34,819 bases of DNA from Candidatus Omnitrophota bacterium. Lineage in GTDB: Bacteria; Omnitrophota; Gorgyraeia; Gygaellales; Profunditerraquicolaceae. The stretch is from the NCBI GenBank assembly GCA_028713155.1, contig JAQTPA010000015.1, positions 1-34,819 of the forward strand, written 5' to 3'. A program made the position numbers and the translations under genes. Position 1 is the first letter of the stretch. The number at the start of each line of letters is the position of its first letter. The notes under the pieces are model-generated. The model did not search any database. It had not been told where the DNA came from and worked only from the letters and a program-made list of their open reading frames with translations. Below, piece by piece: positions 12,588 to 26,865 of the stretch.

Positions 12588-13052
12588 CTAGTCTTGTTTA
12601 AAGAGGGTTTTATCCTCTTGGGTTAATTCCCCGCAAAAAATCCACACCGAAATCTGCAGGCGTTCATCGAGTATTCTGATAATTTTTCCGCTTTGCTGGA
12701 TATGCTGGCCCTTATCAATATCTTTTACCTTATCTTTGTCTTTAAAAAGGAAGGCCAACTGGTAGGTAACATTATTTTTTGTTTTTTGCGGAATGGTGCT
12801 GACCTGGTAGTAAGTACTGCCCAGGTCGTTCGTCGTATCAAAGAAATCATATTCTCCCGCATTGCTGACTGTCCCGGCGCAAGAGATCTCCTTGCCCAGG
12901 CTGTCTTTTAAGACCTGCGTCTTTTGCAAATCCGTCGCCTTATAGAAATTATCAACCAACCCTTCAATATCCATTGCCGCAGCATAGGAAAGTCTGTTTA
13001 ATCCTAAAAGAACGGCTAAAGAAAACGCACTGACCAGCAATATTTTTTTCAT
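12588..13052 (-). CDS. Secreted OB-fold (tRNA_anti-like) protein of unknown function
   Basis: Signal peptide MKKILLVSAFSLAVLLGLNRLSYAAA. 'GKEISCAGTVSNAGEYDF...GQHIQQSGKIIRI' resembles secreted OB-fold domains. AGGGGAGGAA ribosome-binding site on the minus strand. Confidence 0.65.
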   Translation of the reverse strand: MKKILLVSAFSLAVLLGLNRLSYAAAMDIEGLVDNFYKATDLQKTQVLKDSLGKEISCAGTVSNAGEYDFFDTTNDLGSTYYQVSTIPQKTKNNVTYQLAFLFKDKDKVKDIDKGQHIQQSGKIIRILDERLQISVWIFCGELTQEDKTLFKQD

Positions 13053-13132: not shown

Positions 13133-13161
13133 TTGACAAATATATGTAAAATACATATAAT
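13133..13161 (+). promoter_or_regulatory. Consensus sigma70 promoter
   Basis: TTGACA (13133-13138), exactly 17 nt, TATAAT (13156-13161). Confidence 0.9.
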
Positions 13162-13199
13162 TATATTCAAATGAATATCTTTATATGCAAAATACATAT
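13141..13199 (+). promoter_or_regulatory. Triple-palindrome operator array
   Basis: ATATGTA-AAA-TACATAT (13142-13158), ATATTCA-AA-TGAATAT (13163-13178), ATATGCA-AAA-TACATAT (13183-13199). Centres 13150, 13170.5 and 13191. Boxes 1 and 3 match at 16 of 17 positions. Confidence 0.8.
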
Positions 13200-13211
13200 T
13201 AGGAGCCGGGG

Positions 13212-14801
13212 ATGAAGAGTTTTTCGAAAAACACCCTTAGGCTCCTTAAAGTTTTTTACAGCCATCCGGAGCAGCAGTATTATATCCAGGAATTGGGGCG
13301 CCTCTTGAAAACCAAGCCCGGGGTTTTTCAGAGGACTCTTTATAACCTGCAGAAAGAAGGGGTTTTACAGAGCTATTACCGGGCGAATGCCAGGTTCTTC
13401 AGCCTCAATAAAAATTATCCTTTTTATAAAGAATTTAAAAGCATTGTCCAGAAGACAGCCAGGCTTGCGCTCAGCGCAGTTATTGCCGGCTTGTTCTTAC
13501 TGAACAGCTCGAGCGGATTTTGTGCGGAGAATAATCCAGAGACCCTGGTGCTTACTTCGCTGGAAGATGCGATTAAAATAGCGTTTAAAAATAATAAGGA
13601 TATCCGGATACAGGAATACGCGCTGAAAGTCGCTGACGCGGGGATACTGGATGCTAGAAGCGCGTTTTTGCCTAAGGTTGATTTCAATGCCGGTTATACG
13701 CGTAATGCCGCGGTGCTCAGCAGTGCCAGCAGCGGCGGTAAGAAAGACACCGGGGTATTTACCGGGTATAAAAATAATAATCTGATGGGCGTAAGCCTGA
13801 GCGATACTATTTACAACGGCGGAGCCAACATCGCCAGCCTAAGACAGGCTGAGCTGGCCCTAAGCGAACAAAGCCAGACCCTGCGGGCAATCAAGCTTAA
13901 TGTGGAGCTGGAAGCTAAGAGGCTTTATCACGGGCTCCTGCTGGCTTATGAGACAAAACGTATTGCCGAGGACCTCGTAGGGCAGGCAGAAAGCCATTAT
14001 GCAGAAGTAAAAAACAAATTTCAACAAGGGACTGCTTCCAGGTTTGATGTTTTACAGTCTAAGGTGCAGGTTTCACTCCTGGAGCCGCAGCTGATCAATG
14101 CGCAGAATGCCATAGACTTGATCATCGCGGAGATGAATAAACTCCTTGGTTTAAAGATAAGCGACAGGATAATCATCGAGGATAAATTGCTCTATGAACC
14201 CTTTGAGATAAAAGAAGGGGATTTCCTGAAAACCGCCTATCTGAATGAACCGGAGATGATCTTAAGGTCCCTGGGGATAGATATAAGCAAGTGGCAGATC
14301 AAATACGCCCGGGCAGGGTGGCTTCCGCAGCTGGAAACCAACGCCCAGTATTATTATCAGTCCAATAACCCGGGGAACATGTTTAACAGCAGGCATAATA
14401 ATTGGAATATAGGTTTTACCGTGCGCCTGGCGATATTTGACGGATTTTCAACCAAGGCGAAAGTGGACAGCGCCCGGGCCAAGCATATGCAGGCGGTTAT
14501 CAGTAAAGAGAATACGGCTGACCAGGTGGCTGTTGATGTAAGGCAGGCCTGCCTGGATTTGCAGCAGGCAGCCGCCGTAATAAAATCGCAGGAAGATAAT
14601 TTGGAGGATGCCAGGGAAGCTTTGCAGATATCTTATGTCCGTTATAATAACGGCGTAGGCATAAACCTGGATGTGTTGGATGCGCAGGTTTCTTTGGCTA
14701 ACGTAGAAAAGAACCTGGCTGAAAGTACCTACGATTATATTATGGCTAAGGCAAGATTGGACAGGATTATGGGTAATGGTTTTATAGAGGAGGAAAAATG
14801 A
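13212..14801 (+). CDS. Winged-helix DNA-binding domain fused to a signal sequence and a TolC-family outer-membrane efflux protein
   Basis: Residues 1-80 (KNTLRLLKVFYSHPEQQYYIQELGRLLKTKPGVFQRTLYNLQKEGVLQSYYRANARFFSLNKNYPFYKEFKSIV) look like a wHTH of the type found with nucleotidyltransferases. Residues 81-105 (KTARLALSAVIAGLFLLNSSSGFCA) look like a signal sequence. Residues 106-529 look like a TolC/OEP domain. AGGAG SD at 13201-13205. Confidence 0.85.
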   Translation: MKSFSKNTLRLLKVFYSHPEQQYYIQELGRLLKTKPGVFQRTLYNLQKEGVLQSYYRANARFFSLNKNYPFYKEFKSIVQKTARLALSAVIAGLFLLNSSSGFCAENNPETLVLTSLEDAIKIAFKNNKDIRIQEYALKVADAGILDARSAFLPKVDFNAGYTRNAAVLSSASSGGKKDTGVFTGYKNNNLMGVSLSDTIYNGGANIASLRQAELALSEQSQTLRAIKLNVELEAKRLYHGLLLAYETKRIAEDLVGQAESHYAEVKNKFQQGTASRFDVLQSKVQVSLLEPQLINAQNAIDLIIAEMNKLLGLKISDRIIIEDKLLYEPFEIKEGDFLKTAYLNEPEMILRSLGIDISKWQIKYARAGWLPQLETNAQYYYQSNNPGNMFNSRHNNWNIGFTVRLAIFDGFSTKAKVDSARAKHMQAVISKENTADQVAVDVRQACLDLQQAAAVIKSQEDNLEDAREALQISYVRYNNGVGINLDVLDAQVSLANVEKNLAESTYDYIMAKARLDRIMGNGFIEEEK

Positions 14802-15634
14802 AAAAGAAGAAAAAGTTTATAATCATAGCGTTGATTTTAGCCATTGCCGCCTACACGGCGGTTGTTTTTCTCTTAAAAGAGAAGCAGGCCAATAGTAAGA
14901 TTATCAAGGTTTCCGGGAACATTGAGGGGGATGACGTGCGCATATCTTTCAGGATAACCGGACAGATTATTGAGCTTTTGACGGATGAAGGCAAGGTCAT
15001 CAGAAAGGGGGATATTGTCGCCCGGCTCAATAAAGATGAACTGAGTAAAGTTCAGGCTGAGGCAGAAGCAGCGCTAAAATTGGCAGAATATCAGTATAAG
15101 CTGGATTATGATGATTACGTGAGGGCTGAAAACCTGCTTAAGGCAGGCGCGATTTCCGCTCAACAGCGCGATACGGCGAAAACCAGAATGAACACTGATT
15201 CGGCAAACATAAAACAATTACGCGCTTCCCTGGAGCTGGCTAATACAAAACTAGGCTGGGCAGATTTAGCCAGTCCGCTTGATGGTTACGTACTGGTAAA
15301 AAGCGCCCTTCCCGGTGAAGTCGTACAGCCGGGTTCCCCGGTTTTTACTGCCGTCAACCTGGATGACCTCTGGGTTACTGCTTATATAAATGAGACGGAT
15401 TTGGGCAAAGTGAAATTAGGGCAAAAGGCGTACGCGGAGACAGATACCTACCGCGGAAAGAAGTATAGCGGCCGGGTTTCCTTTATATCCAGCCAGACCG
15501 AGTTCACTCCTAAATACATCCAAACCAATGAAGAGAGAGTAAAGTACGTTTACCGGATCAAGGTGAGAGTTGACAATTCCAGTCTGGATTTAAAACCCGG
15601 GATGCCCGCGGACGCGTATATAATGATTGAATAA
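14798..15634 (+). CDS. HlyD-family periplasmic adaptor (YbhG/YhiI-like)
   Basis: N-terminal TM, biotinyl-lipoyl halves, full coiled-coil hairpin (LSKVQAEAEAAL...AKTRMNTDSANIKQLRASLELANTKLGWADLASPLDGYV). ATGA overlap with the TolC fusion. Confidence 0.92.
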   Translation: MKKKKKFIIIALILAIAAYTAVVFLLKEKQANSKIIKVSGNIEGDDVRISFRITGQIIELLTDEGKVIRKGDIVARLNKDELSKVQAEAEAALKLAEYQYKLDYDDYVRAENLLKAGAISAQQRDTAKTRMNTDSANIKQLRASLELANTKLGWADLASPLDGYVLVKSALPGEVVQPGSPVFTAVNLDDLWVTAYINETDLGKVKLGQKAYAETDTYRGKKYSGRVSFISSQTEFTPKYIQTNEERVKYVYRIKVRVDNSSLDLKPGMPADAYIMIE

Positions 15635-15643
15635 ATTCAGGCC

Positions 15644-16384
15644 ATGGTTACGATAAAAACGGAGAACCTGACCCGTAAATTCGGGGTGCTCACAGCCTTA
15701 GACCAGCTCAACCTTGAGGTCCAGGAGGGTGAGATCTTTGGCTTGGTCGGGCCGGATGGAGCAGGTAAAACTACAACTATGCGCCTTTTGACCGGGATCC
15801 TGGATCCTACGGAAGGCCAGGCTTGGACTTATAATAAACATACCGTAAAAGAAGCGGAAAGCCTCAAAGAGCATATTGCTTATATGTCTCAGCGTTTCGG
15901 GCTTTATGAAGAATTAAGCGTCCTGGAAAATATTAACTTTTACGCTGATGTTTACGGAGTGGCCAGAGATAAGCGCATAGAGGCTATTGAGCGCCTGCTG
16001 GGTTTTTCCGGACTTTTGCCCTTTAAGCAGCGTTTTGCCGGTAAGCTCTCCGGAGGGATGAAACAAAAACTAGGCTTAGCCTGCGCACTCATCCATACCC
16101 CGAAAGTCTTATTCCTGGATGAACCTACTAACGGCGTTGACCCGGTCTCCCGCAGGGACTTCTGGAATATACTCTATGATTTGCTCAAGGAAAAAGTCAC
16201 CATATTTTGTTCTACCTGCTATCTGGATGAGGCTGAACGTTGCCACCGCGTCGGCCTGATGCACAAGGGGAAGCTCCTGCGTTGCGATTCTCCCGGCAGG
16301 ATTAAGAAAGAATATAATACTAAAACTCTAGAGGAGGCATTTATCACGATAATCGGAGAATATGAAAGAAGCCAGCCCAAATAA
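15644..16384 (+). CDS. ABC transporter ATP-binding protein
   Basis: Walker A GPDGAGKTTT, signature LSGGMKQ, Walker B VLFLDEPTNGVDP. Confidence 0.93.
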   Translation: MVTIKTENLTRKFGVLTALDQLNLEVQEGEIFGLVGPDGAGKTTTMRLLTGILDPTEGQAWTYNKHTVKEAESLKEHIAYMSQRFGLYEELSVLENINFYADVYGVARDKRIEAIERLLGFSGLLPFKQRFAGKLSGGMKQKLGLACALIHTPKVLFLDEPTNGVDPVSRRDFWNILYDLLKEKVTIFCSTCYLDEAERCHRVGLMHKGKLLRCDSPGRIKKEYNTKTLEEAFITIIGEYERSQPK

Positions 16385-17327
16385 CATTGCCGTAAGTGTC
16401 CAAGGCCTAGAAAAGAAATTCGGGAATTTCACCGCGGTCAACCGGATCAATTTTGAAGTGAAGGCGGGTGAGATCTTTGGATTCTTAGGGCCGAATGGCG
16501 CGGGTAAATCCACGACCATCAGGATGCTCTGCGGGATTATCAGCCCTACCTCAGGCTCGGGAAAGGTGGGCGGTTTTGATATTATTAAAGAGCAGCATAA
16601 AATCAAGGAGCATATCGGTTATATGTCCCAGAAGTTTTCTCTTTATAATGACCTGACCGTAAAGGAGAATATTGATTTTTACAGCGGCATATATAAGATC
16701 CCGCAAAAGGATAAAAAAGAACGGCTGGAAACAACTGTGCGGACCGCGGGGTTAGAAGGGATGGAAGGGAATCTTACTGCGACGCTTGCCGGAGGCTGGA
16801 AGCAGCGCCTGGCCCTGGGGTGCGCGCTGATCCATAAGCCCAGGATTATCTTTCTTGATGAGCCGACCTCGGGCGTTGATCCGATAACCCGCGCCAATTT
16901 CTGGGGTATTATCAAAGAGTTAGCCGGCCAAGGTGTAACCGTTTTTGTTACTACGCATTATATGGATGAGGCGGAGAATTGCAACCGTATGGTTTTAATT
17001 TATCACGGCACGATCATCGCTGCGGGTACCCCGCAAGAGATGAAAACTGAAGTCATGAAGAATGAGGTCCTCGAGATTGCAATAGCTGATGCTCAGGGCT
17101 GGCTGGAGAGGGTCGTTAAAATAGAAGGCGTCAAGGAAGCCGCGCTTTTCGGAGCGGATATTCACGCTGTTGTTTATGACAACTCTAAGGCAATTCCGGC
17201 GATAAAGGAATTCCTGCAAAGCGCAGGCGCGGGGGAATTCAGCGTGAATAAAATTCTTCCCTCTCTGGAAGATGTATTCGTTTCCTCAATAGAAGAATAT
17301 GACCGCACAGAGTCTAAGAAGAATTAA
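16362..17327 (+). CDS. ABC transporter ATP-binding protein
   Basis: Walker A GPNGAGKSTT, signature LAGGWKQ, Walker B IIFLDEPTSGVDP. Overlaps the upstream ABC gene by 23 nt. Confidence 0.93.
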   Translation: MKEASPNNIAVSVQGLEKKFGNFTAVNRINFEVKAGEIFGFLGPNGAGKSTTIRMLCGIISPTSGSGKVGGFDIIKEQHKIKEHIGYMSQKFSLYNDLTVKENIDFYSGIYKIPQKDKKERLETTVRTAGLEGMEGNLTATLAGGWKQRLALGCALIHKPRIIFLDEPTSGVDPITRANFWGIIKELAGQGVTVFVTTHYMDEAENCNRMVLIYHGTIIAAGTPQEMKTEVMKNEVLEIAIADAQGWLERVVKIEGVKEAALFGADIHAVVYDNSKAIPAIKEFLQSAGAGEFSVNKILPSLEDVFVSSIEEYDRTESKKN

Positions 17328-18441
17328 ATCTATAGCCTGGAAGGAATTTATCCAGATTAAACGCGACCCGCGTTCTCTAGGGTTAGCTTTGGCAATTCCC
17401 ATATTCCTTCTGTTGATTTTTGGTTACGGGCTTAGCCTGGATATTGATAAAGTTCCGACCATTGTTTGGAATCAGGATGCTTCCAGCGAACTAAGCCGGG
17501 ATTTTATGCTCAATTTCAAAAATTCCAAATACTTTAAAATAATCGGCTATACGGATAACTACCGTCAGATCGAGCAGATGATCAATGCGGGAGAGGTTAT
17601 GATGGCCTTGATCATCCCCAAGGATTTCTCCCATTATCTTGAATCCGGTAAGACTGCGCCTCTGCAGCTCATCGTGGATGGAAGCGATGCGAATACCGCT
17701 ACCATTGCCATGGGCTATGTGCGGACAGTAGTTTCCAATTATAATGTGAATTTGTTGAGCAGTACGTTTGCCTCCCGGGGACTGCCAAGGCCTCAGACAG
17801 TGGATGCCCGCTCAAGGATTTGGTTTAATATGGGCCTGACCAGCACCTGGTTTATTGTTCCCGGGGTTATCGCGATGATTATTATGATTATTGCCAGTTT
17901 GCTTACTTCCATTTGTATCGCCCGCGAATGGGAGAGGGGGACGATGGAACAGTTGATCTCTACACCCGTAAAAGCCCCGGAGCTGGTCATCGGTAAATTC
18001 ATCCCCTATTTTACCATTGGGTTTTTTGACCTTATAGTGGGCGTGATCATGGCCAAGTTTTTGTTTGGCGTGCCTTTCCGGGGTAGTTATCTGTTGCTTT
18101 TTTTTCTAAGCTCGTTGTTTCTAACCGGCGCTCTAGCGCAGGGGATATTGATCTCTGTAGTCGCCAGGACGCAATTAATGGCCAGCCAGCTGGCTACCCT
18201 TACCACCATGCTGCCGACGGTGCTGCTCTCCGGGTTTATCTATCCGATCTTTAATATGCCTCAATTTATCCAGGTAGTCACTTATCTTATCCCGGCGCGC
18301 TATTACATTGTTGTCTTGAGGGAAATATTCTTGAAGGGCGGCACAATAACTGTCTTGTGGGATGAGACGCTTTTTCTCTTTTTATTTGCCCTGATAATGT
18401 TTGGCATTGCGGTAAAGAGATTCAAAAAAAAGGTGGCTTAG
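17299..18441 (+). CDS. ABC-2 type permease (YbhS/YhhJ-like)
   Basis: KEFIQIKRDPRSLGLALAIPIFLLLIFGYGLSLDI...; multiple TMs; typical drug-export ABC-2 permease. Confidence 0.92.
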   Translation: MTAQSLRRIKSIAWKEFIQIKRDPRSLGLALAIPIFLLLIFGYGLSLDIDKVPTIVWNQDASSELSRDFMLNFKNSKYFKIIGYTDNYRQIEQMINAGEVMMALIIPKDFSHYLESGKTAPLQLIVDGSDANTATIAMGYVRTVVSNYNVNLLSSTFASRGLPRPQTVDARSRIWFNMGLTSTWFIVPGVIAMIIMIIASLLTSICIAREWERGTMEQLISTPVKAPELVIGKFIPYFTIGFFDLIVGVIMAKFLFGVPFRGSYLLLFFLSSLFLTGALAQGILISVVARTQLMASQLATLTTMLPTVLLSGFIYPIFNMPQFIQVVTYLIPARYYIVVLREIFLKGGTITVLWDETLFLFLFALIMFGIAVKRFKKKVA

Positions 18442-18442
18442 G

Positions 18443-19570
18443 ATGTTTGAGCGCTCAAGGGCGATCCTGATAAAAGAATTTAAGCAAATCTTCCGCGACC
18501 CGCGGATGAGAACGGTTATCTTTATTACTCCGCTGATCCAGATACTTCTTTTTGGATACGCCGCGAATAAAGATATTAACTATGTTCCAACGGCTATTTT
18601 AGACCGGGATAATACCAAAGAGAGCCGTGAGCTTCTACGTAGGTTTACCTATTCCAAATATTTTATCCCTGAACATTATATCTTCAGCGAAAAGGAGCAA
18701 AATTTCATTCTGGATAAGGGTTTAGCCAGCGTGGTTATTCATATTGACCGCGGCTTTGGCCGTGACCTCAACGCCGGAAAGGACGCCTCCATCCAACTGG
18801 CCTTTGACGGCACAGATTCAAATACAGCGATGATCATTATGGGTTATGCTAATACCATTGTAAGTGACTACCAGTATGATTTATTAAAAGAGGCGCTGGA
18901 AGCAGGCGGTTTGACCGGCAGCGCTCCCAGGGTGGACCTAAGGGACCGCGCCTGGTTTAACGGCAATCTAATTTCCCGGAATTATTATCTTCCGGGTGTA
19001 GTTGCTATAATTGTGACGATGATGTCGCTTTTATTGACCTCCATGGCAATAGTAAAAGAAAAAGAGATCGGCACAATGGAGCAGTTAATTGTCAGCCCTT
19101 TGAAGCCGCTGGATCTTATTGTCGGCAAGCTCCTTCCGTTTGCGATAATCGCGCTGGTTCAGATTATCCTTATTACCATATTGGGCGTAGCCTGGTTTCA
19201 TATACCCTTAAGAGGGAATCTGTTTTTATTGCTCTTGTCTACCTGCGTATATTTATTTACCACTCTGGGAATAGGCTTGTTTATTTCTACGATATCCTCA
19301 ACCCAGCAGGAGGCGATGATGTCGGTTTTTCTTTTTTATATGCCGGCTATGCTTTTATCCGGGTTTGCTTATCCGATAGCCAATATGCCGCAATGGATCC
19401 AGTGGTTTACCCTGGTTAATCCTTTACGTTATTTTATGGTTATTGTGCGGAGTTTGTTTTTAAAAGGAGTTGGGGTAGAGGTTCTTTGGCCCCAGCTTAT
19501 ACCGCTGATGATCATGGGTATTTTAGTAATTACCTTTAGCGCTTTTCGTTTCCGCAAGAGCTTAGGGTGA
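18443..19570 (+). CDS. ABC-2 type permease (YbhR-like)
   Basis: IKEFKQIFRDPRMRTVIFITPLIQILLFGYAANKDI...; paralog of the upstream permease. Confidence 0.92.
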   Translation: MFERSRAILIKEFKQIFRDPRMRTVIFITPLIQILLFGYAANKDINYVPTAILDRDNTKESRELLRRFTYSKYFIPEHYIFSEKEQNFILDKGLASVVIHIDRGFGRDLNAGKDASIQLAFDGTDSNTAMIIMGYANTIVSDYQYDLLKEALEAGGLTGSAPRVDLRDRAWFNGNLISRNYYLPGVVAIIVTMMSLLLTSMAIVKEKEIGTMEQLIVSPLKPLDLIVGKLLPFAIIALVQIILITILGVAWFHIPLRGNLFLLLLSTCVYLFTTLGIGLFISTISSTQQEAMMSVFLFYMPAMLLSGFAYPIANMPQWIQWFTLVNPLRYFMVIVRSLFLKGVGVEVLWPQLIPLMIMGILVITFSAFRFRKSLG

Positions 19571-21910: not shown

Positions 21911-21937
21911 ACCTTTTTAAAAATGTTAAGATTTAGC

Positions 21938-21966
21938 TTGACAAAAAGTAAAAATGAATCTAATAT
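21938..21966 (+). promoter_or_regulatory. Sigma70-type promoter of the TetR-efflux operon
   Basis: TTGACA (21938-21943), 17 nt, TAATAT (21961-21966). Confidence 0.75.
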
Positions 21967-21973
21967 ACATAAT

Positions 21974-21989
21974 ATGAATACAAATTCAT
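21974..21989 (+). promoter_or_regulatory. Palindrome over the TetR start codon (putative autoregulatory operator)
   Basis: ATGAAT-ACAA-ATTCAT, with a third ATGAAT copy at 21954-21959 (20 bp upstream). Confidence 0.5.
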
Positions 21990-22639
21990 TAATTGAGGAA
22001 ATAATCGGAAATAACCAAATTTCTGCCAGCTTAAGCCGGAAAGAAAGAGACAAGCAGCTGCGTAAGGCCGATATTATGGCTGCGGCAGAGCGCGTCTTTG
22101 CCTTAAAAGGGTATCATGGAGCGGCAATGCAGGATATTGCTCGCGAGGCCCAGTATGCCACCGGCACGGTCTATTTGTATTTCAGGGACAAAGAAATGCT
22201 TTATTTTTCCCTGTTGGAAGAGAAAATGAGGAATTTAACAACTGTATTGAGGCAGAAGGCAGCTCAGGTTAGCGACGCTGAAGATGGGTTGCGGATCTTT
22301 ATGCAAGAGAGTTTGAATTTTTTTGAAAGGAATCAGGATTTTTTCAGGATATTCTTTTCAGAGGTATCCAAAGGCCCGATATTGAAAAAAGGGAAGCCCC
22401 CTAAGCCTTCCGGGATGCTGCAGCACAAAGAATTTGTCGAAGAGCTTATCAGTACCGGACAAAAGCAGAAAATAATAAGAAATGATTTTAGCGCAAAACA
22501 GATAGCAGATATTCTTATATCGATTTTTATGGCTTTCATTTTTGATTGGTTAAAAGAAGGCCCAAAAGATAAGAAATTAAATACTGCGGCTGATTTTATC
22601 CTGGATATATTTTTAAGCGGAGCAGGCAGGAAAAGATGA
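21974..22639 (+). CDS. TetR/AcrR-family transcriptional regulator
   Basis: RKADIMAAAERVFALKGYHGAAMQDIAREAQYATGTVYLYFRDKEMLYFSLLEEK is a canonical TetR HTH. Start placed at the ATG at 21974 rather than the track's 21923, which lies upstream of the promoter. Confidence 0.92.
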   Translation: MNTNSLIEEIIGNNQISASLSRKERDKQLRKADIMAAAERVFALKGYHGAAMQDIAREAQYATGTVYLYFRDKEMLYFSLLEEKMRNLTTVLRQKAAQVSDAEDGLRIFMQESLNFFERNQDFFRIFFSEVSKGPILKKGKPPKPSGMLQHKEFVEELISTGQKQKIIRNDFSAKQIADILISIFMAFIFDWLKEGPKDKKLNTAADFILDIFLSGAGRKR

Positions 22640-23922
22640 AGGCAAAGAATTCCTTAATATTAATAATATTAAGCTTATTCCCGTTGTTTTTTTTCAGTAA
22701 GGCGGCAGCCGAAGAAACGCTGACCTGGCAGAATTGTATTAAAGAGGCAGCGAAAAACCATCCGGATTTAATCGCGGCAGTAGAGGAAACAAAGCAATCC
22801 CAGGCCGCTAAGAGAATTACCGCCAGCGCCTTTTACCCCCAGGTAGACGCTAATCTGGATGCCTCAACCTCCAGGATTGCCTCCGATAATAATCCCGCTT
22901 CTGTTGGCGATAGTTATAGTTACGGAATAAGCGCGACCCAGTTGATCTTTGACGGCACCAAGACCATCCAGGATGTAAAAGCTGCTGCGGAGAATATAAA
23001 AGCCTCGCAGCAGAATTATAAATATACTTCTACGCAAGTCAGGTTAAATCTACGTACCGCATTCGTTAATTTATTAAGGGCCCAGGATTTAATCAAAGTA
23101 ACCGAGGATATTGTGAGGATAAGAAAAGAGAATTACGAGCTGATAACCTTGCGTTATGTATCCGGCTTAGAGCATAAAGGCGCGCTGCTTACCGCGGAAG
23201 CAAATTTAGCCCAGGCGCGATTCCAGGTTGCCCAGGCAAAAAGGGACGTTGTGCTGGCGCAAAGGCAGTTGACTAAGGAAATGGGACGCAAAGGATTTAT
23301 CCCGATGAGCGTAAAAGCAGATTTTAAAGTTACTGATTCAGCCAAAGATAAACCGGACCTTGAATCCCTGGTAAAAAATAATCCCTATTTGCAACAGCTT
23401 ATCTCCCAGAAAAATGCGGCAGAATTCAGTTTAAAATCTGCCTACGCCAATTTTTCTCCCACGCTAACCGGCGCGGCCGGCGCAAATAAAGCCGGTAAAC
23501 ATTGGCTGCCTAAAGGCGATAACTGGAGTCTGGGGCTTAGCTTATCCATGCCTATATTTGAAGGAGGACTAAGGACCGCGCAGGTATCCCAGGCCCAGGC
23601 TTATTTAAGCCAATTAAAGGAGAATGAAAGAAGCACGCGGGACAGCCTGGTTGTTGCTCTGGAGAACACCTGGGTAGCCTTACAGGATGCCATTGAAACA
23701 GTAGGAGTTCAATACAAAACCCTGATTGCTACTGAGGAGCGTTCTAAAATAGCCGAGGCAGAATACGCGACAGGTTTTATTAGTTATGATAACTGGACGA
23801 TTATTGAGGATAATCTGGTGCAGGCCAAGACCGCTTATTTAAATTCCCAAGCCAACGCTTTATTAGCTGAGGCAAATTGGATCCAGGCGAAAGGAGAGAC
23901 ACTAGAATATGCGAAAAATTAA
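22636..23922 (+). CDS. TolC-family outer-membrane efflux protein
   Basis: Signal peptide ending KAAAEE; OEP repeats 'TWQNCIKEAAKNHPDLIAAVEE', 'RLNLRTAFVNLLRAQDLIKV'. ATGA overlap with tetR. Confidence 0.93.
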   Translation: MKAKNSLILIILSLFPLFFFSKAAAEETLTWQNCIKEAAKNHPDLIAAVEETKQSQAAKRITASAFYPQVDANLDASTSRIASDNNPASVGDSYSYGISATQLIFDGTKTIQDVKAAAENIKASQQNYKYTSTQVRLNLRTAFVNLLRAQDLIKVTEDIVRIRKENYELITLRYVSGLEHKGALLTAEANLAQARFQVAQAKRDVVLAQRQLTKEMGRKGFIPMSVKADFKVTDSAKDKPDLESLVKNNPYLQQLISQKNAAEFSLKSAYANFSPTLTGAAGANKAGKHWLPKGDNWSLGLSLSMPIFEGGLRTAQVSQAQAYLSQLKENERSTRDSLVVALENTWVALQDAIETVGVQYKTLIATEERSKIAEAEYATGFISYDNWTIIEDNLVQAKTAYLNSQANALLAEANWIQAKGETLEYAKN

Positions 23923-24886
23923 ATCAAAGATTATTGTTGTGATTTTAGTGCTATTAGCTGTTTCTGTGTTTATAGCGATCAAGATTAAAAGCAAAGAACA
24001 AAGCAGCGAGATCATTAGAGAAGTTAAACCTGTCCTAGGGATTATCCAGACGTATATTTCCACGACAGGGACAGTATACCCTAAAAACCGGTTGGAAGTA
24101 AAGCCTCCGGTTAACGGACGCATAGAGAGTATTGCTGTTAAGGAGGGTGAAAAGGTAAAAGATGGCCAGGTTTTGGCCTGGATGAGTTCTACGGAAAGGG
24201 CTGCCCTGCTGGACGCTGCCCAGGGGCAGGGAGAGGCAGTATTGAAATACTGGGAGCAGGTATATAAGCCTATATCGCTTTTATCTCCGATTGACGGAGA
24301 AGTTATTGTCGCTACGACCCAGCCGGGGCAGACCGTTACTACCAGCGATGCCGTAGTTGTCTTATCGGACCATCTGATTGTCCGCGCCCAGGTTGACGAG
24401 ACCGATATCGGAAAGATCAAGCTCGGCCAGGGAGCTTTGGTAACTCTGGATGCTTACCTGGATACCAAGATAAAGGCGACTGTCGAGCATATATATTATG
24501 AATCCGAGACAGTAAATAACGTGACTATCTATAAAGTTGACCTTATCCCTGAAAAGACCCCGGAATTTTTCCGTTCCGGGATGAATGCGACAATAGATTT
24601 TAAAGCTGAAGGCAGAGAGGATGTTTTGCTCTTGCCGGTAGAAGCAGTGCGCAAAGAAAAAAGTGAAGATTATGTCCTGCTGAAAAATAATGGTAGTGAT
24701 AATCCGGTTAAGCGCGTGGTGAAAACAGGCATTACCGATGATAAAAATTATGAAATTCTTTCCGGCGTAACTTCCTCAGATACGGTACTTGTTACGACAA
24801 AGAAATATGTATTCCCTAGCGCTGATAGCTCAGGCAGTAATCCATTTTTGCCTAATATGAAAAGAAGGGGATCAAACAAAAAATAA
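23909..24886 (+). CDS. HlyD/MacA-type periplasmic adaptor with unusually short hairpin
   Basis: NGRIESIAVKEGEKVKDGQVLAWMSSTERAALLDAAQGQGEAVLKYWEQVYKPISLLSPIDGEVIVATTQPGQTV; barrel-sandwich hybrid, beta-barrel. Confidence 0.9.
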   Translation: MRKIKSKIIVVILVLLAVSVFIAIKIKSKEQSSEIIREVKPVLGIIQTYISTTGTVYPKNRLEVKPPVNGRIESIAVKEGEKVKDGQVLAWMSSTERAALLDAAQGQGEAVLKYWEQVYKPISLLSPIDGEVIVATTQPGQTVTTSDAVVVLSDHLIVRAQVDETDIGKIKLGQGALVTLDAYLDTKIKATVEHIYYESETVNNVTIYKVDLIPEKTPEFFRSGMNATIDFKAEGREDVLLLPVEAVRKEKSEDYVLLKNNGSDNPVKRVVKTGITDDKNYEILSGVTSSDTVLVTTKKYVFPSADSSGSNPFLPNMKRRGSNKK

Positions 24887-24891
24887 TATAA

Positions 24892-26865
24892 ATGATAGAA
24901 GTCAAAAATTTATCTAAAACTTACCAAATGGGCGATGTCAAGGTAGAGGCCTTGCGCGGAGTGTCCCTGAAAATATCTTCGGGAGAATTTGTCGCGATTA
25001 TGGGCGCTTCCGGGTCGGGTAAGTCTACCCTGATGCATGTCTTGGGTTTGCTGGATAGGCCGGATTCAGGCCAGTATTATCTGGGGGGGGAAGAAGTAAC
25101 CAAGCTTTCAGATAAAGAATTAGCTCTGGTAAGGAATCAACTGGTTGGTTTTGTCTTTCAACAATTTCATTTATTGCCTAGAATGACGGCTCTCGAGAAC
25201 GCTGAGCTTCCTTTGATTTATGCCGGTAAGAGGCATTTGAAAGAAAGGGCGGCTAAGGAAATCGAAGGCGTTGGTTTAAAAGACAGGATGTTGCATCGGC
25301 CCAATGAAATGTCCGGAGGCCAGCAGCAGAGAGTGGCGATCGCCAGGAGTTTGGTAAACGATCCTCCGCTAATCTTCGCGGATGAGCCGACAGGGAACCT
25401 GGATTCCAAGAGCAAAGAAGAGATCATGGCCATATTGAAGAAGCTTAACCAGGCAGGCAAGACCGTGATTGTTGTTACTCACGAAAGCGATATTGCCAGC
25501 CAGGCCAGGAGGATTATCCAGATGCGTGACGGAGAGGTTATTTCCGATAAGGTTGTTTGCGCAGAGGCTAAACCTTCGGCATCCGGTATCCCGGAGGATT
25601 TAATAAAAAATATCTTAACAGAGTCAAATAAGGGGATAAAGGGCGGCATTGAGTTTTTAGATTATCTGCGTCAGGCTATTTCGGCTATGTTAGCGCATAA
25701 GATGCGCGCGTTCTTATCAATATTGGGTATACTTATCGGCGTAGCCGCGGTCATCGCCATGTTAGCCATAGGCCAGGGCGCGAAAGAATCCATTGAAAAA
25801 CAGTTAGCCTCACTTGGCTCTAATCTTCTTATTGTCAGGCCCGGCGCCCACAGATCGGGCGGCGTAGCTTTACAGACCGGAGTAACCACGCGTTTTACTT
25901 TTCAAGATGTGGCGGCGATCAAGAAGCTGAGTGAATATGTAGACAGGGTGAGCCCTTCGGTATCGGACAGGGCCCAGATAGTCTATGGAAACAAGAACTG
26001 GAATACCCAGGTTGAGGGTGTTGGTGTGGATTATGCACAACTGCGTTCAGCTGTCCCGACAGTGGGAAGATTTTTTACCGAAGAAGAAGTAAGATTGAGG
26101 AATAAAGTGGTTTTGCTGGGTACGACTGTGGCCAGAGAAATCTTTGGAGAAGTTAACCCGATTGGCGAGACCATCAAGATAAATTTGATTAATTTTAAAG
26201 TAATCGGGATTTTGCCTGCTAAGGGCGCCGGCGGGTTCCGCGACCAGGATGATACCGTAGTCATTCCAGTAACCACCGCGATGTACAGGGTTTTAGGTAA
26301 AGAGTACATTGATTATATTTATGTGGAAGCAAAAAGCGCTGATTTAACCGAAGTGGCGCAGGAAGCAGTAAGCAAGCTTATTATTAAGCAGCATCGTTTG
26401 ATCAGCAACGACCAAAAAGATTCATTTCAAATCTTCAATATGGCCGACATAAAGAATACGCTTACATCTACCACTGAGACAATGTCTTTATTGCTGGGAG
26501 CGATTGCGGCTATCTCGCTTTTGGTCGGCGGTATAGGTATTATGAATATTATGCTGGTTTCGGTTACCGAGCGCACGCGCGAAATCGGCCTGCGTAAAGC
26601 TATCGGCGCCAACAATAAAGATATTATGGTACAGTTCCTGATTGAGGCAGTGTTGATGTCGCTTATCGGCGGTTTAGCCGGTGTTCTGCTGGGCAGCGGC
26701 GCAGCGACATTAATAACTGTTTTTGCAAAATGGTCGGTAAGAGTCTCTCTGTTTTCAATAATCCTGGCCACGGTTTTTTCTTTGATTGTGGGCATAGTCT
26801 TCGGGATCTGGCCTGCCCGGAAAGCCGCTAAGTTGGATCCAATCGAAGCCTTAAGATATGAATAA
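24892..26865 (+). CDS. macB: MacB-type ABC transporter (fused ATPase and FtsX-like permease)
   Basis: GASGSGKSTLMHVLGLLDRPDSG, MSGGQQQRVAIARSL, FADEPTGNLDS; C-terminal 'TERTREIGLRKAIGA...FGIWPARKAAKLDPIEALRYE'. Confidence 0.93.
   Translation: MIEVKNLSKTYQMGDVKVEALRGVSLKISSGEFVAIMGASGSGKSTLMHVLGLLDRPDSGQYYLGGEEVTKLSDKELALVRNQLVGFVFQQFHLLPRMTALENAELPLIYAGKRHLKERAAKEIEGVGLKDRMLHRPNEMSGGQQQRVAIARSLVNDPPLIFADEPTGNLDSKSKEEIMAILKKLNQAGKTVIVVTHESDIASQARRIIQMRDGEVISDKVVCAEAKPSASGIPEDLIKNILTESNKGIKGGIEFLDYLRQAISAMLAHKMRAFLSILGILIGVAAVIAMLAIGQGAKESIEKQLASLGSNLLIVRPGAHRSGGVALQTGVTTRFTFQDVAAIKKLSEYVDRVSPSVSDRAQIVYGNKNWNTQVEGVGVDYAQLRSAVPTVGRFFTEEEVRLRNKVVLLGTTVAREIFGEVNPIGETIKINLINFKVIGILPAKGAGGFRDQDDTVVIPVTTAMYRVLGKEYIDYIYVEAKSADLTEVAQEAVSKLIIKQHRLISNDQKDSFQIFNMADIKNTLTSTTETMSLLLGAIAAISLLVGGIGIMNIMLVSVTERTREIGLRKAIGANNKDIMVQFLIEAVLMSLIGGLAGVLLGSGAATLITVFAKWSVRVSLFSIILATVFSLIVGIVFGIWPARKAAKLDPIEALRYE

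Follow-up and report, generated by a model that had tools for sequence, protein, structure and literature searches.

A winged-helix domain fused to a TolC-type channel as a probable autoregulator of an exporter operon in Candidatus Omnitrophota

Results

Organization of the locus

The DNA analyzed here (the window) is a stretch of 34,819 nucleotides from a Candidatus Omnitrophota genome. A single 529-aa frame on the plus strand (13212-14801) encodes a winged-helix (wHTH) domain in residues 1-82, a hydrophobic signal segment and a TolC domain in residues 105-529. Its ATG at 13212 lies six bases 3′ of a Shine-Dalgarno sequence, AGGAG (13201-13205, plus strand). The fusion is followed on the same strand by genes for a HlyD-type periplasmic adaptor (14798-15634; PF16576/PF13437), two ABC ATPases (15644-16384, recognized by domain search, and 16362-17327, recognized from its translation) and two ABC-2 permeases (17299-18441, by domain search, and 18443-19570, PF12698). 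The ends of these genes overlap or nearly touch, and their order is conserved.

A divergent gene on the minus strand (12588-13052) encodes a small secreted protein that weakly matches an OB-fold (tRNA_anti-like); it adjoins the fusion in most relatives, where the protein is 49-88% identical. The window contains a second efflux operon of ordinary layout (21923-26865, plus strand) encoding TetR, TolC, HlyD and a MacB-like ABC protein. The TetR gene of that operon is separate (21923-22639) and overlaps the TolC start at 22636.

The two domains of the fusion

The mature channel part (13524-14801, plus strand) matched Pfam OEP (PF02321) in two stretches with E=6.4e-69, and thus has the two OEP repeats of a TolC protein. 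Residues 1-82 (13212-13457, plus strand) gave no Pfam or NCBIfam match over threshold and do not fall into the curated MarR/ArsR sequence families; a PDB sequence search with this domain returned nothing convincing. Its structure was modelled with AlphaFold using nine homologs. The model consists of a helix (6-17), a short strand (22-24), two helices (25-32 and 36-49) and two wing strands (52-57 and 60-65), with a core pLDDT of about 90. A long helix of lower confidence (72-97) continues into the hydrophobic segment. Foldseek matched the model to the repressors MepR, HlyU, SqrR, ZitR and MarR with E values of about 4e-4 to 4e-3, and the modelled fold is that of a MarR/ArsR-like winged helix. 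The full-length AlphaFold model of the fusion, built from 10 sequences, was poor (mean pLDDT 59) and was set aside. The initial annotation had read this frame as a wHTH domain fused to TolC and had called for a structure prediction of the N-terminal part; the open frame, the OEP match and the predicted fold all agree with that reading.

Conservation and selection

The same fusion was found intact in about 30 Omnitrophota genomes from at least three families, with wHTH domains 53-91% identical, so that the recurrence sought in related lineages was indeed present. A search of the 59 nearest genomes, this one included, recovered 16 with the wHTH in open frames of 526-550 aa, plus one in which the copy is truncated. 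Over the whole family, 32 of 108 genomes encode a domain of this wHTH class (E below 1e-36), mostly in frames of 515-565 aa; the short frames represent contig ends or decayed copies. Beyond this family, the fusion occurs in f38 (L068) and f23 (L069-L071), two families that belong to the same class. Public records of the relatives are Candidatus Omnitrophota metagenome-assembled genomes from several data sets. A mis-assembly or frameshift was considered and rejected, since an assembly error cannot explain the same open frame in about 30 genomes from several data sets.

For close, unsaturated pairs, dN/dS of the wHTH was 0.05-0.08, like that of TolC. By this measure purifying selection on the wHTH is as strong as on the channel. 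No relatives were found in the viral contigs searched, and a plasmid search gave weak wHTH matches only, the best of them in nucleotidyltransferase genes.

Decayed copies were seen at L055/L065/L117 (G119), L066 (G089) and L013 (G052). They retain the wHTH, the promoter and the operators, while TolC is truncated and the downstream operon is largely or wholly deleted. At L040 and L048 (G077) the fused TolC continues in frame into HlyD, giving 753 aa from the ATG. The HlyD membrane segment is absent from this join, which may be a genuine triple fusion or an artefact, as a stop occupies this position in the close relative L017.

Promoter and operators

The sequence upstream of the fusion contains a sigma-70-type promoter (13133-13161, plus strand), with TTGACA at 13133-13138, a 17-bp spacer and TATAAT at 13156-13161. 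Identical -35 and -10 elements with the same spacing precede the orthologs. Three palindromes of the type ATATGC-N5-GCATAT, arranged in tandem at intervals of about 21 bp, overlap the promoter. Putative operator 1, ATATGTAAAATACATAT (13142-13158), lies within the spacer and over the -10 element; putative operator 2, ATATTCAAATGAATAT (13163-13178), is in the same register in relatives; the third palindrome is putative operator 3, ATATGCAAAATACATAT (13183-13199). Arrays in the relatives have palindromes at spacings of 21 and 41-42 bp 5′ of the fusion.

The upstream regions of 30 relatives contained 56 such sites scoring at least 10 of 12, against 2.1 expected from dinucleotide shuffles. Genes in which a related wHTH is joined to a nucleotidyltransferase (see below) had 10 sites (score 9 or more) in six upstream regions, against 0.56 expected. 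Upstream of 20 TolC orthologs lacking the wHTH the motif was missing, with one site (score 10 or more) against 0.44 expected. The motif therefore follows the wHTH and not the channel. A scan of the whole genome allowing two or fewer mismatches returned operators 1 and 3 only and no other targets.

These data indicate that the wHTH is very probably an autoregulator of the TolC-HlyD-ABC-ABC-permease-permease operon. It is likely to act as a repressor, for which the position of operator 1 in the spacer and over the -10 element argues, although it may instead be an activator.

Signal segment and translation starts

The signal segment (residues about 83-104; 13458-13523, plus strand) has its h-region at about residues 85-97. 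It diverges fast, with a median identity of 23%, yet remains hydrophobic in all 32 orthologs examined, where the h-region is short. Most of these align as [G/A]-x-[C/A/S]|, with small residues at -3 and -1 (GFC|AE, AFC|EE, AFA|QA, GFS|EE, AQA|A); Leu takes the -3 position in a few. The putative signal peptidase site is therefore better read as GFC|AEN, after residue 104, with Gly at -3 and Cys at -1. The unfavourable Phe at -3 noted initially arises only when the cut is placed one residue late, as FCA|EN. A lipoprotein signal was rejected, the Phe before Cys104 being incompatible with a lipobox. A gene for signal peptidase I is present in the genome. Unlike an ordinary TolC signal, this conserved h-region with its small -3/-1 residues stands behind an 82-residue domain. 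An N-in, C-out orientation is favoured by the basic stretch that precedes the h-region and by the acidic residue that follows it.

In known TolC structures the mature N-terminus belongs to the periplasmic portion and is far from the inner membrane. Here the membrane helix ends some ten residues before the domain and could not reach it once the barrel is in the outer membrane, so cleavage would be needed for a working channel. A permanently uncleaved fusion serving as a tethered regulator, one of two outcomes envisaged in the initial annotation, is accordingly unlikely: TolC must leave the inner membrane to work.

The claim that no start codon separates the wHTH from the hydrophobic core was borne out, the first candidate being a TTG at residue 94, inside the core. 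No ATG, GTG or TTG occurs at residues 58-98 in 8 of the 32 fused relatives, and no candidate start position is conserved among the 32. A conserved internal TolC start was thus rejected, and TolC is presumably produced, as a rule, as part of the fusion.

Origin of the module and a parallel XRE fusion

In other Omnitrophota genes a minimal nucleotidyltransferase is fused behind a close relative of the wHTH (51-57% identity). Members of this family (L072-L081, L020) have paired palindromes at their own promoters and are apparently autoregulated; weaker relatives were found on Legionella plasmids.

Signal peptides are of the ordinary kind in TolC orthologs that lack the wHTH. At L091 and L093 a gap of three bases lies between the end of a separate gene for an XRE/Cro-type regulator and the TolC start; at L090 and L104 a TetR gene lies directly 5′ of tolC. 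Touching regulator and channel genes of this kind would offer an easy route to fusion, through loss of the stop codon and the TolC start. The existence of orthologs with the same operon and no fused regulator indicates that the fusion is not essential for the exporter.

One genome carries a second type of fusion. At L095 (family f23; G309:C27, minus strand, 1597-71) an XRE/Cro-type HTH domain (HTH_3, 1.2e-9) takes the position of the wHTH and is joined to the signal of TolC (VKVDDLLVLILCFLFFFGGARSFVYCQEP); the HlyD-ABC-ABC-permease-permease operon that follows is the same. Upstream AATAGTAG/TATTATAATA elements are common to L095 and the separate XRE genes of L091 and L093. In the TolC tree the XRE-fused TolC nests within the wHTH-fused clade (97/85), which suggests that XRE replaced the wHTH in the L095 lineage; an independent XRE fusion may also have occurred, being compatible with the AU test (p=0.22). 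The presence of two unrelated DNA-binding domains at the same place suggests that the arrangement is useful.

The TolC-fused wHTHs form one group (80/88) against those of the nucleotidyltransferases. A single grouping of the corresponding TolC parts was rejected (AU p=2e-33), and with it one fusion followed by vertical descent of the whole gene. As the wHTH part is compatible with one origin and the TolC part does not form one group, the module must have been lost, transferred or recombined since its origin.

Discussion

A model for regulation by the fusion

The fusion, its conservation, the selection acting on it, the operators, the kinship of the module and the operon were read from the sequences. 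They are best accommodated, in our opinion, by an autoregulated fusion in which a membrane-held wHTH stub, left behind after TolC export, represses its own operon; we regard this model as reasonably likely.

The 82-residue winged helix would descend from the wHTH-nucleotidyltransferase family, which would also be the source of its promoter and operators. During synthesis it would fold in the cytoplasm, serving as a very long n-region, while the h-region would direct the chain to Sec and signal peptidase I would cut after about residue 104. TolC would then proceed to the outer membrane, leaving in the inner membrane a stub of about 104 residues that comprises the wHTH and one membrane helix in N-in orientation. 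There a wHTH dimer could bind the three tandem palindromes and repress the operon until the stub is degraded or cut free. Each channel produced would thus probably add one repressor for the operon that encodes it, giving dosage feedback. The conserved fusion, the lack of a conserved separate TolC start, the wHTH fold and the tandem operators together imply that regulator and channel are produced 1:1, as was initially proposed.

The same anatomy could be explained by a precursor that senses export, in line with the initial suggestion that the wHTH could report on TolC export or stalling. Here the uncleaved full-length chain would be the active repressor and would accumulate and shut the operon when Sec, signal peptidase or outer-membrane assembly is saturated; after cleavage the stub would be rapidly degraded and repression would lift. 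Sequence does not separate this explanation from the stub model, but the latter is simpler and takes fewer steps, and an arrest motif or sensor was not identified in the fusion. We consider an export-sensing precursor unlikely. It is less probable still that the stub is cut after signal cleavage by an intramembrane protease or a signal-peptide protease, so that the wHTH is freed and diffuses in the cytoplasm like any soluble repressor: the genome does encode an M50 (RseP-type) protease, but such proteases are near-universal and occurred in 14 of 14 control genomes, so that its presence lends this soluble form weak support.

In another alternative TolC is made mainly from an internal start, with the wHTH-bearing form as a minor or regulatory product. 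In two f23 relatives (L069, L071) translation from an ATG at residue 80 would indeed produce a standard signal peptide, but with a quarter of the orthologs devoid of any candidate codon in the region, and the only one of the window inside the h-region, we find this explanation hard to credit. An artefactual join or frameshift, or a neutral vestigial wHTH, can practically be dismissed: all the data are metagenome-assembled and the HlyD join at L040/L048 may be artefactual, but the fusion comes from several studies, its wHTH is under selection and the operators are tied to it.

If the stub model is true, one translation event yields a channel for the outer membrane together with the repressor that controls its operon, the two linked by a signal peptide. 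This would be a new way of keeping the amount of an envelope protein constant, possibly also of sensing secretion load, without a separate sensor, and would be a case of a bacterial signal peptide that takes on a second role once targeting is done. It would also explain why selection maintains the fusion of two proteins that work in different compartments. The broader idea is that the signal-peptide part of an exported protein is the repressor of its operon, by which the cell would keep count of the channels it exports or sense a block in export, with unrelated DNA-binding domains found at the same place. We advance this idea tentatively, as one that could well prove too far-reaching.

Comparison with known systems

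Our searches of the open-access literature found no report in which TolC, or a bacterial signal peptide that is cleaved, carries a fused DNA-binding domain. As far as we have checked, the parts are of known kinds and their combination is undescribed.

That regulators held in the membrane can act on DNA is established for transmembrane transcription regulators of the ToxR/CadC/TcpP type (PMC10269533). Like these, the fusion has an N-terminal cytoplasmic DNA-binding domain, one membrane segment (according to the model and hydropathy) and a C-terminal part beyond the inner membrane. Unlike them, its helix resembles a cleavable signal peptide and its C-terminal part is an outer-membrane channel; in place of a ToxR-like periplasmic sensor there is TolC with an ordinary mature N-terminus. 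The text of the survey of transmembrane regulators (PMC10269533) makes no mention of TolC, efflux or signal peptides. We file the fusion under the theme of membrane-tethered one-component regulators and do not claim membership of the ToxR-like family, because stable anchoring is putative and no sensor domain was seen.

A leader with a function after cleavage has been described for an animal retroviral protein, HERV-K Env (PMC2649029), and the cleaved leader proposed here would likewise have a job of its own. The wHTH-minimal nucleotidyltransferases (PF18765/PF01909) share with the fusion a homologous wHTH and the same paired palindromes at the promoter, but the fusion has no GS-x-AK...SDIDL domain and carries the signal and TolC in its place. 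Finally, as in TolC or ABC/RND efflux operons controlled by TetR, XRE or MarR-type proteins such as MepR, the operon begins with a local regulator; in those operons it is a soluble protein of its own, whereas here regulator and channel are one polypeptide.
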